Origin: Bacteroidales bacterium
GTDB taxonomy: Bacteria; Bacteroidota; Bacteroidia; Bacteroidales; UBA12170
Assembly (NCBI GenBank): GCA_029938465.1
Contig: JAOZUW010000004.1
Coordinates: 1-39,313 of the forward strand
Reading direction: 5' to 3'
Length of the DNA stretch: 39,313 bases
A program made the translations under genes and the position numbers. Shown piece after piece: positions 5,780 to 34,712 of this stretch. Below the pieces are notes generated by a model. The model worked only from the letters and a program-made list of their open reading frames with translations. It was not told where the DNA came from and ran no database searches. Within the stretch, counting starts at the first letter, position 1. The number at the start of each line of letters is the position of its first letter.

Positions 5780-7360
5780 ATGGCTCAAATCAAACCTGCT
5801 GAGGTTTCAGCAATTTTAAGACAGGAGTTAGCTGGTTTTAAAGATGATGCACAACTTGAAGAAGTAGGTACTGTTCTCCAGGTAGGAGATGGTATTGCTC
5901 GTGCTTATGGATTATCTAACGCACAAGCCGGTGAATTGGTAGAATTTGAAAAAGGTGGTGTTAAAGGTATTGTACTAAATCTTGAAGAAGACAACGTTGG
6001 TATTGTACTTTTAGGTGAAGCCGATGAAATTAGCGAAGGTGATACTGTGAAAAGAACTAAATTAATTAGTTCTATTAAAGTTGGTGAAGGACTCTTAGGA
6101 CGTGTTATAAACACACTTGGAGAACCTATTGATGGTGCAGGACCAATACAAGGTGAAACTTTTGAAATGCCTTTGGAGCGTAAAGCACCAGGTGTAATTT
6201 ATCGTCAACCAGTGAGCGAACCATTGCAAACAGGTATCAAAGCTATCGATGCTATGATTCCTATTGGTCGTGGTCAACGTGAGCTTATTATTGGTGACCG
6301 TCAAACAGGTAAATCTACTATTGCTATTGATACTATTATCAATCAAAAAGAGTTTTATGATAAAGGAGAGCCTGTATATTGTATATATGTAGCTTCTGGC
6401 CAAAAAGGATCTACTGTAGCTAATATTATGCAACTTCTTAAAGAAAAAGGGGCATTAGCTTATACAGTCATCGTTACTGCCACAGCTGCTGATCCTGCTG
6501 CTATGCAGTATTATGCACCATTTGCTGGTGCTGCCATTGGAGAATTCTTCCGAGATACAGGTCGTCCGGCTTTAGTAGTCTATGATGATTTATCTAAGCA
6601 AGCTGTGGCTTATCGTGAAGTGTCTTTATTACTGCGTCGTCCTCCAGGTCGTGAGGCTTATCCAGGTGATGTATTTTATCTTCACTCAAGATTATTAGAA
6701 CGTGCGGCTAAAGTGATTGAAAGTGATGAGATAGCTAAAGAAATGAATGACTTACCTGAAAGTATCAGACATATGGTAAAGGGAGGAGGATCCTTAACGG
6801 CTTTGCCTATTATTGAAACACAAGCGGGTGATGTTGCGGCTTATATTCCAACAAATGTGATTTCCATTACAGATGGTCAGATTTTCTTGGAGTCTGATCT
6901 GTTTAACGCGGGTATTCGTCCTGCTATTAACGTAGGTATTTCGGTATCTCGTGTTGGAGGTGCTGCACAAATTAAACCTATGAAGAAAGTGGCAGGTACT
7001 TTAAAGCTCGATCAGGCACAGTATCGTGAGTTGGAAGCATTTTCTAAATTTGGTTCTGATTTGGATTCGGCAACCATGTCAGTACTCGATAAAGGAAAAC
7101 GAAATGTTGAGGTGCTTAAACAAGGATTGAATTCACCTATGAGTGTTGAAAATCAGGTAGCTATTATTTATTGTGGTACTTTTGGTTTGCTGAAAGATGT
7201 TCCTGTGAATAAGGTTATTTCATTCCAAACAGATTATTTGCATCATTTAGAAAGCAATGAAGCTGAAACAATGAAGCAAATAGCTGCAGGGAAATATAAC
7301 GATGAAATACAGGATGTATTAAAGAAAGCAGCTGCCCTAATAGCTGATAGATATAAATAA
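5780..7360 (+). CDS. atpA: ATP synthase F1 subunit alpha
   Basis: Non-catalytic nucleotide-binding subunit of F1, 526 residues. It has an N-terminal beta-barrel domain, the P-loop GDRQTGKST (172-180), the conserved [21 protein letters not shown] region (about 261-281), and the arginine finger R390 in GISVSRVGG, which reaches into the catalytic site of the neighbouring beta subunit. The beta subunit itself (atpD) is not encoded in this window. The length is usual for Bacteroidetes. It lies 33 nt after atpH. Confidence 0.98.
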
Positions 7361-32367: not shown

Positions 32368-32823
32368 CTATTGTCGTATGATGTCTCTATATTCTTCTAG
32401 CCAATCTTCAAGTTGTATCATATTTTTGAAAAAGAAGGGATAAACTTTTTCCCAAGTATTTTTGTCAAAAATATTTACACCTTCCAAAGATAGGGCAATT
32501 CTTATGATATCTTTACCATTATCCAGTTCATACATATCATCCCATTCCATATTTAAATGATAATCATTGATAAGGATATTCTTTAATCCCAAAAGTTTAT
32601 TCCAATATTCGAGTCTTTTATCTATTGATTTACTTGTAATATCAATGCCTACACTAGCTTTGATTTTATTGATATCAAATTTTAAATCCAAAGCTTTAAT
32701 GCCTGTATTTTGCATCATCCATTTCTTAGGTTTCCCTAGTCTTTTACGCTTTGGAGCAGAATATTTCCTAAATTCCAACCAAAAACTTTCACGCAATTGC
32801 TTTGCTTCTTCTTTGCTATACAC
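32368..32823 (-). CDS. DUF4268-like protein, start codon replaced by an insertion
   Basis: A 151-residue soluble protein of unknown function resembling the DUF4268 family common in Bacteroidetes (start YSKEEAKQLRESFWLEF; WNKLLGLKNILINDYHLNMEWDD and GVNIFDKNTWEKVYPFFFKNMIQLEDWL later). The codon at 32823 is GTG, not ATG, and it is the last three bases of an inserted element. The native ATG followed by TAT lies at 33087-33082, on the far side of the element; read from there the frame hits TAA after seven codons. Expression now depends on the GTG and on a promoter inside or before the element, so the gene may be weakened or silent. The rest of the frame is intact, suggesting a recent event or continued use. 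Confidence 0.75.
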   Translation of the reverse strand: MYSKEEAKQLRESFWLEFRKYSAPKRKRLGKPKKWMMQNTGIKALDLKFDINKIKASVGIDITSKSIDKRLEYWNKLLGLKNILINDYHLNMEWDDMYELDNGKDIIRIALSLEGVNIFDKNTWEKVYPFFFKNMIQLEDWLEEYRDIIRQ

Positions 32824-33081
32824 CTGAGTTTGCTATTAAATAAAAATACAGAAAGCTAATAATGTGTGAGGTTTTAAAAATATATTTATGAGAAAAATGG
32901 AATGCTGTGAAAGTGTTAAAGATAAAAGATTTCTCCTTATTTGCTTTCCCTCCTGGCATTTTGATGTTTTCCATATACTTCCTCATATTTTCTCACATTA
33001 ATCCATTAGTGTTTTAAAAATCTGAGTCGTCAATGAAAAATATCAAAATGCTGTAAAATTATTTTATATCAAACTCAGGTG
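32821..33081. mobile_element. 261-bp MITE-like element inside the DUF4268 start
   Basis: Perfect 12-bp terminal inverted repeats, CACCTGAGTTTG (32821-32832) and CAAACTCAGGTG (33070-33081). ATA is duplicated at both junctions (32818-32820 and 33082-33084); the duplication could be read as ATAC if the element starts one base later. Deleting the element and one copy restores ATG TAT AGC AAA GAA on the minus strand, the expected start of the interrupted gene. Inside are an inverted repeat (32957-32971 with 33035-33050) and a 56-codon frame that looks non-coding. There is no transposase, so movement would need one supplied from elsewhere. Confidence 0.85.
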
Positions 33082-33133
33082 ATACATAATTGAAAAGCAA
33101 AAATAGTCAATTCTTTATTACCTGAATTCAGAA

Positions 33134-33733
33134 TTACAATTTTAATTTCAATTGTTCGGTCATATTAAAAGTTAGCCGATGATGTAAAGTAGTGCCGTGT
33201 ATTGCAATGGCTCTTTTATGAAATTTGGTAGGGTAACCTTTATTTTTATGCCAATCGTAATACGGAAAATCTTGATGGATCTTTTGCATAAACTCATCGC
33301 GATGCGTTTTAGCTAGAATTGAAGCTGCAGCAATGGACATATATTTGCCATCTCCTTTGATAATGCAGTGATGAGGTATGTTTTTATAGTCTTTGAATTT
33401 ATTCCCATCCACTAAGATGAGTTCTGGTTTTTTATGGAGCTGATCTAAAGCACGATGCATACTCAGGATACTGGCATTTAAAATATTTATTTGATCTATT
33501 TCTTTTGGCGAACAAGTGCCAATTGCCCAGTATAAGGCTTCTTTTTCAATAATAATTCGTAATTCGTTTCTTTGTTTCTCAGTAAGTTTTTTGGAATCAT
33601 TGAGAATGCTGTTCTTGAAATTTTTAGGCAAGATTACTGCTGCTGCAAAAACAGGTCCGGCTAAACATCCTCTGCCAGCTTCATCACAACCAGCTTCTAT
33701 GGTTTTTTTATTCGAATAATACTTTAGAAGCAT
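33134..33733 (-). CDS. rnhB: Ribonuclease HII
   Basis: Removes ribonucleotides and RNA from RNA-DNA hybrids; 199 residues. The catalytic acids are D17 and E18 (GCDEAGRG), D109 (LILVDG) and D128 ([18 protein letters not shown]), and the C-terminal [15 protein letters not shown] is present. The start overlaps the end of the upstream membrane-protein gene by 26 nt, which suggests coupled translation. Before the insertion downstream, the DUF4268 ATG lay 46 nt after its stop. Confidence 0.97.
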
Positions 33734-34712
33734 AGGCTAAATAGTATTTGTTGATGAGTAAGAGAATAATAAATGTAGTGAAAATGATGTCGATGAGTAT
33801 TCGGCGAGTTTTAACAATTCGTAGATAATAACCCAAGATTCCTGCCAGAGGGATTAAAAATAAATTTTTCGAAATACTGTCTGGAAAAAAAATAAGAGGG
33901 TATAAACTAAAAAACATCATCCAGATAGATAAACTTGTTTTTCTTCGGATATCGATAACTTTTGCAGTAGTTTCAGGTATTATTTTCGCCAGACTAACAA
34001 ATAAAAAGAATCCTAGAATACTAAAAATAATGCTATAAAAAATACTGTTAAACTGTGGTATTTGATAAAAGGTATGATAAGCTGAATCCCATTCAGAAGA
34101 TATTAATTCAAGTTTATCGAACCAAAATAGCCAAGTGAATAGAAACAAATAGGGGATAATAAGTCCCACAATGCTCATAGGAAGGTATCGCCAGTTGTAA
34201 TTTTGAAAGATAAAGAAGCTAAACCAGATAATTGGAAAAATAAGGAGGTTAGAATAGCTAATAAAACTGGCCAATGAGAGAATAAAAGAAGCGGTAAATA
34301 TGCTATTGTCAACTTGGTCATCATCTCCACTTTTCAATATAAAATCAAAAGCAATAGCGAGTAAAAATAGATTAACAATACCTAAAAATTGATATTGAAA
34401 GGGATAAAAGAAATTAAATAATGCGATCAGAATTAAAGAAGATAAAAAATTGGAGTGGTGTGCCAGTTGATGTTTTGCAAAAATTTCTTTCACATAAAAT
34501 GCTAAGCCTAATAGTAATAAATGACTAATGACTTGATATAGCCAATTAATTTTAAGCCAAGAGTAAAAACAGATGAGGTTTAAAAACAAAGTGGTTTGAG
34601 GAATGTATTCTGTATTGTTTTGAAAGAAATGAGGTACTGCAAAAGCTATGGCAAAGATGATAATCCAGCTTATTTGAATAAAAAATGTTTTTTTAAATAG
34701 TTGTAAAATCAA
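33708..34712 (-). CDS. Multi-pass membrane protein, DUF6427-like
   Basis: 334 residues with about nine or ten hydrophobic segments spread along the whole length, and no signal peptide or catalytic motif that I recognise. The N-terminal [20 protein letters not shown] and its place beside purD resemble the DUF6427 family of Bacteroidetes; the assignment is by resemblance only. Function unknown. It lies 58 nt after purD and overlaps rnhB by 26 nt. Confidence 0.65.

Follow-up and report, generated by a model that had tools for sequence, protein, structure and literature searches.

The 261-bp segment at positions 32821-33081 of the window, which is the whole stretch of 39,313 nucleotides that was analysed, is most probably a non-autonomous MITE that depends on an IS982-family transposase supplied in trans and belongs to an old family of fixed size with a Y-shaped foldback. 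The most interesting property of this family is its long-lived, strand-symmetric foldback architecture. The features of the locus are:

32368-32823, minus strand: DUF4268 gene (PF14088), whose start is now a GTG (32821-32823) formed with the end of the element
32818-32820, no strand assigned: left copy of the target duplication, ATA (ATAC with the next base counted)
32821-33081, plus strand: MITE of 261 bp, given in the orientation that puts arm 1 first, which the family alignment also uses (E 1.1e-33 with the nhmmer profile of the family, in which this copy is itself a row)
32821-32851, plus strand: left terminal inverted repeat, perfect over 12 bp and imperfect over 31 bp, and 5' side of the closing stem P1
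32851-32948, plus strand: hairpin arm 1, with outer stem GAAAGC/GCTTTC and a tip that is degenerate here; the tip loop of the family is often CGGG
32956-33051, plus strand: hairpin arm 2, GCATTTTGATGTTTTCCAT / ATGAAAAATATCAAAATGC; the tip loop of the family is often CCCG
33051-33081, plus strand: right terminal inverted repeat and 3' side of P1, pairing with the left repeat
33082-33084, no strand assigned: right copy of the target duplication, ATA (ATAC if run to 33085)
33085-33087, minus strand: original ATG of the DUF4268 gene, now severed and reading ATG TAT CAC CTG AGT TTG ATA TAA
33098-33105, minus strand: TATTTTTG, putative -7-like promoter box as in Bacteroidota; same-genus relatives have it in the same position

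The borders given in an earlier, sequence-only reading are correct. The segment is bounded by perfect 12-bp inverted repeats (CACCTGAGTTTG / CAAACTCAGGTG) that extend imperfectly to 31 bp with 84% complementarity, and the flanking ATA (or ATAC) duplication is seen at both borders. The flanks, GCTATA/C...G/ATACAT, can be read as a 3-bp ATA duplication with C and G as the element ends or as ATAC/G+ATAC, and the arrangement TATAC/GATAC is compatible with a 3- or 4-bp duplication. Throughout the family the left flank has T in 116/122 and A in 120/122 copies, and the right flank T in 119/122 and A in 109/122, around three bases (NNN) that are identical in 92/122. This pattern would result from a 5-bp duplication, or from one of 3 bp in a TNNNA target if the outermost bases of the element are A and T. 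Because the flanks across the family read T-NNN-A, the duplication is put at 3, 4 or 5 bp. At 261 bp, and with no open reading frame of 60 or more amino acids inside it, the element is short and has no transposase gene, as had been stated. Only the further statement that no family could be named is superseded, since the element now has a place in a MITE family with IS982-type ends. The exact 12-mer end occurs nowhere else in the window, the whole of which was scanned.

The reading of the segment as mobile DNA with inverted repeats, inserted in the start region of DUF4268, is borne out by relatives without the insert, by a second copy in the same genome and by many related copies elsewhere. BLAST of the element against its own genome gave one full match, the window copy itself. 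The family profile, applied to the stretches around earlier matches, added a near-complete, diverged copy of 273 bp (G000:C21:3063-3335; E 6.7e-34) with ends ACCTGAGTTCCATT.../...GAATTCAGGT, flanks TTATA/TTGTA and no match in the reversed sequence. A single-copy segment, which would have spoken against mobility, is therefore not what this genome holds, and it may contain further copies. The BLAST fragments L002-L004 from the same genome, considered as decayed copies, fell short of the family profile and were not counted. Within the genus, G003 has about ten copies, most of them 266 bp long, G009 has one of 267 bp and G001 one that is shortened.

Related copies with ends at a spacing of about 260 bp are numerous outside the genus. 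A search of 85k species genomes for degenerate ends (ACCTGAGTTYGA-N226-256-TCRAACTCAGGT) matched at least 119 stretches of genome contigs, from Flavobacteriales, Bacteroidales, Chitinophaga, Pedobacter and other Bacteroidota. Together with the copies in the own genome and in G003 they are dispersed at unrelated loci. Campylobacterota MAGs account for 15/80 among the matches listed, and a few more lie in MAGs labelled Chlorobiota or cyanobacterial. The Campylobacterota copies, whose hosts are taken from the MAG label, form a separate subgroup (median identity 86% within it and 49% to others, at most 76%), and this speaks against mere contamination of the bins. Degenerate ends were needed: the window's own 12-mer ends, exact and at this spacing, were found in none of the 85k genomes. 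Both exact ends at this spacing were present in 4/295 genomes of the order, in four families. Viral contigs gave no family match, and plasmids gave no BLAST match with two copies as queries. A chance origin is far excluded because the same ends recur at the same spacing in many genomes.

The family ends are AACCTGAGTTCGA and the target is TNNNA. Among the distinct relatives 112/125 measure 261-267 bp, with lengths crowding at 262-266 bp in a search that allowed 250-280. The family length is thus about 263 bp, and the architecture is conserved at about 52% mean pairwise identity. The best explanation is an old family that has passed from lineage to lineage.

Some variants were observed beside the typical copies. 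A 131-bp element (L265:6156-6286) with ACCTCAG/CTGAGGT ends has one hairpin arm only and is a half-size derivative of the family. Two full-length elements (L257:2974-3237 and L235:4532-4795) have arm 2 of the family and an arm 1 that is unalignable with it, maybe replaced. In L270:6668-7490 family ends lie at 6668, 6900, 7239 and 7490, within 820 bp, possibly from a nested element or an adjoining remnant. The 266-bp L302 (L302:1501-1766, corresponding to G141:C36:104225-104490), with ACGTGAG ends, was rejected as a family member on its different interior and fold; it is a second MITE-like type of equal size with IS982-like ends and an unrelated interior.

The family folds back into a Y: the terminal repeats pair as the closing stem, and the interior is taken up by two long hairpins. 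By explicit criteria, closing stem and both arms were present in 104/126 copies and in 0/126 with shuffled interiors; the fold of the window copy has z scores of -6.3/-6.6. In 45 diverged aligned copies 91.5% of the cells were paired, against 72.1% after shuffling and 34-44% in slid controls; the shuffle comparison is inflated by relatedness, which the far lower slid control keeps, and the consensus-derived structure is favoured there too. Double changes were seen in 45/58 pairs, with 508 double-change cells against 166. The tip loops, often CGGG in arm 1 and CCCG in arm 2, stand at fixed places, and the pairs that close them covary freely. A kissing loop between these complementary tips was considered and found no support, with 3 against 2.2 expected once the CGGG copies are set aside. 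In the stem of arm 1 (A1 columns 50-54 and 118-124) AGAT is conserved on both sides, and the two copies form a tandem G-A mismatch in a constant position. Tandem G-A mismatches are a motif that is stable in DNA, and this one is possibly a protein-binding or kink site.

The structure would act as DNA, as a cruciform or as a single strand during replication, and would aid synapsis or the binding of transposase or host factor. Selection may be put forward, tentatively, as maintaining the DNA shape itself, that is the two-armed foldback and neither an encoded product nor sequence beyond the 12-bp ends; during transposition a hijacked IS982 transposase or a host factor would then recognise the extruded or single-stranded foldback. 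The covariation could instead have arisen unselected, by template-switching during replication of quasi-palindromes, which time and again copies one arm onto the other and so preserves perfect hairpins as the sequence drifts. This concerns the functional fold only and leaves the identification as a MITE untouched. It predicts a strand-symmetric structure dominated by Watson-Crick pairs, as is observed, but leaves the constant length, the arm positions, the CGGG / CCCG loops and the conserved unpaired columns unexplained, and it appears unlikely, with some weight still due to it.

A structured non-coding RNA gene that is mobile by chance, with the transcript of one strand folding into the Y and acting as RNA, would also account for paired columns that covary strongly. 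RNA tolerates G-U and not A-C, so lopsided mismatches are expected on one strand. Isolated mismatches were therefore counted after folding without G-U. With all 126 copies counted unweighted, one strand had more G-T than A-C (163 vs 97), and so did the shared consensus pairs (139 vs 85), but this strand-neutral test was symmetric among representatives below 80% identity (58 vs 60) and gave 81 vs 69 among those below 90%. The alifold covariation energy is also alike on both strands (-101.7 vs -102.7). Since mismatches and energies are strand-symmetric, the constraint on the fold points to the DNA rather than the RNA level, to which a weak RNA contribution may add a small share. No Rfam family reached its gathering score in the copies tested, which gave only sub-threshold matches to long hairpins; the orientation to neighbouring genes is inconsistent, and an unsystematic look noticed no conserved promoter. 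An RNA gene is accordingly rather improbable.

For the MITE reading a source of transposase is needed in trans, and an IS982-family enzyme would recognise the 12-16-bp ends. A full-length element with the same ends and a transposase was found in a relative, not in the own genome. It is a complete IS982-family IS of 1,041 bp (L136/L281, in G086) that has TAATA as the flank on either side and shares the 12-mer ends, and the 309-codon open frame of its transposase scores 275 bits against NF033520, over the cut-off. The family has the exact ends and the TNNNA-type target of this IS; it lacks the transposase, and the ends alone are in common. G009 has a longer multicopy repeat with the same ends, a peptide of which matches the C-terminus of IS982 transposases. 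Fourteen contig ends of G009 break inside the same IS982-type element (C2, C27, C53, C56, C74, C83, C93, C98, C115, C124, C127, C131, C141 and C144), so a recent IS982 expansion there is probable. In other genomes of the order many IS982 elements have ACGTGAG or ACCCG ends. No match to NF033520 was found in the window's genome, a 94%-complete MAG of 260 contigs from which repeats are easily lost, and the same model found none in several genomes with intact family copies. With no IS982 transposase seen in these carriers, mobilisation by IS982 is what we best infer; judged by the shared ends and target, an element of the L136/L281 type is the likely mobiliser, and the window copy may be stranded without one.

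The common ends would also be expected if the segment had arisen recently in this lineage by internal deletion from one local IS982 element, as has been proposed for MITECca01 of Cardinium (PMC9769881). Such an origin is very improbable, as no transposase remnant was recognised in the element and homologous interiors occur in copies from other families of the order and from other phyla; the window copy thus descends from an old family and not from a local IS deletion.

At the DUF4268 gene (PF14088, E 1.7e-26) the history of the insertion can be read from both sides. A GTG at the element end was said to have replaced the start codon in frame, and this is confirmed: the first two bases of the GTG are the end of the element, and the translation starts MYSKEE. 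The old ATG persists on the far side of the element from the frame, followed by its TAT codon (33082-33084, minus strand), and when read into the element gives M-Y-H-L-S-L-I-stop. Ten bases upstream of it sits TATTTTTG, which same-genus relatives also have immediately before their start and which we take to fit the Bacteroidota -7 box. Uninterrupted starts in relatives of the same genus and order, which were the material of the comparison rather than same-species strains, read ATG TAT AGC AAA GAA (L055), ATG TAT TCC AAA GAA (L051) and TTG TAC AAG AAA GAA. The first of these is the empty site that had been reconstructed from the window, and the insert is absent from the same-genus relatives. 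An ordinary, non-mobile promoter or leader hairpin of the DUF4268 gene would suit the location, with the -7-like box on one side and the frame on the other, but is refuted by the same-genus relatives without the segment and by the same element beside unrelated genes elsewhere, with target duplications.

As a MITE, the element would have entered the DUF4268 reading frame a few bases in, at TATAC, a TNNNA-like target. It would thereby have separated the native promoter and ATG from the reading frame, for which the junction GTG would be the first start after an in-frame stop. The native promoter and start now lie 261 bp from the frame, behind a strong hairpin, and the insertion is expected to lower or rewire DUF4268 expression. 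The frame is intact, with 62% identity to relatives, so the gene may still function from the junction GTG. The transaldolase gene lies 58 bp downstream of the DUF4268 gene, and the putative effect of the insertion on its expression, raised in the sequence-only reading, is possible. Elsewhere in the window (33708-34712, minus strand) a 334-aa membrane protein-like frame without a Pfam match adjoins rnhB, a position conserved in same-genus relatives (L045-L047).

Bacterial MITEs are usually regarded as short-lived, lineage-specific debris of one IS. The present family occurs in more than one class of Bacteroidota and in at least one phylum besides; its length is nearly constant, and its fold covaries and is strand-symmetric. 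No published account of such a phylum-wide structured family, or of its conserved fold, was found in the open-access papers searched. The family makes it testable whether a non-coding passenger transposon must have a DNA secondary structure in order to move, and its profile lets annotators mark an overlooked element that lies beside, and sometimes inside, genes. REPINs rely on RAYT tyrosine transposases and are without such terminal repeats and target duplications. We know of no report of REPINs or Borrelia structured repeats spanning many classes with one fixed fold of about 263 bp. REPINs (PMC3116915) and the Borrelia repeats (PMC2674063) resemble the family in being dispersed non-coding DNA with strong hairpins.

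Several known MITEs are among the closest parallels to the family. MITE239 of Porphyromonas gingivalis is about 240 bp long, and has the left end ACGTGAGTTCGATATAAAGGAA and a TIR matched to ISPg3, an element filed as IS5 (PMC4596501, Table 2). Compared by its ends only, it resembles the family in size, in the lack of a transposase and in its Bacteroidales host, and its end is close to the family's ACCTGAGTTCGATATAA, with one core base different; unlike for the present family, no structure or phylum-wide family is described in the excerpts of that paper (PMC4596501). An order-wide pattern search for MITE239 gave only the different element L302, and viral contigs gave none. MITECca01, a MITE of about 240 bp in Cardinium, has IS982-family ends, is derived from ISCca4 and is confined to one strain; set beside the family by description only, it shares the IS982-type ends and the Bacteroidota host, whereas the excerpted account reports no conserved fold for MITECca01 or MITECca02 (PMC9769881), and the present family extends over classes and into at least one other phylum. 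IS982-family ISs begin with AC, like the family ends, and the word MITE is absent from the main text of the review that describes them (PMC7335449). MITEs with IS982-like ends were thus known already, and the new point is the conservation of length and two-armed architecture at about 52% identity.
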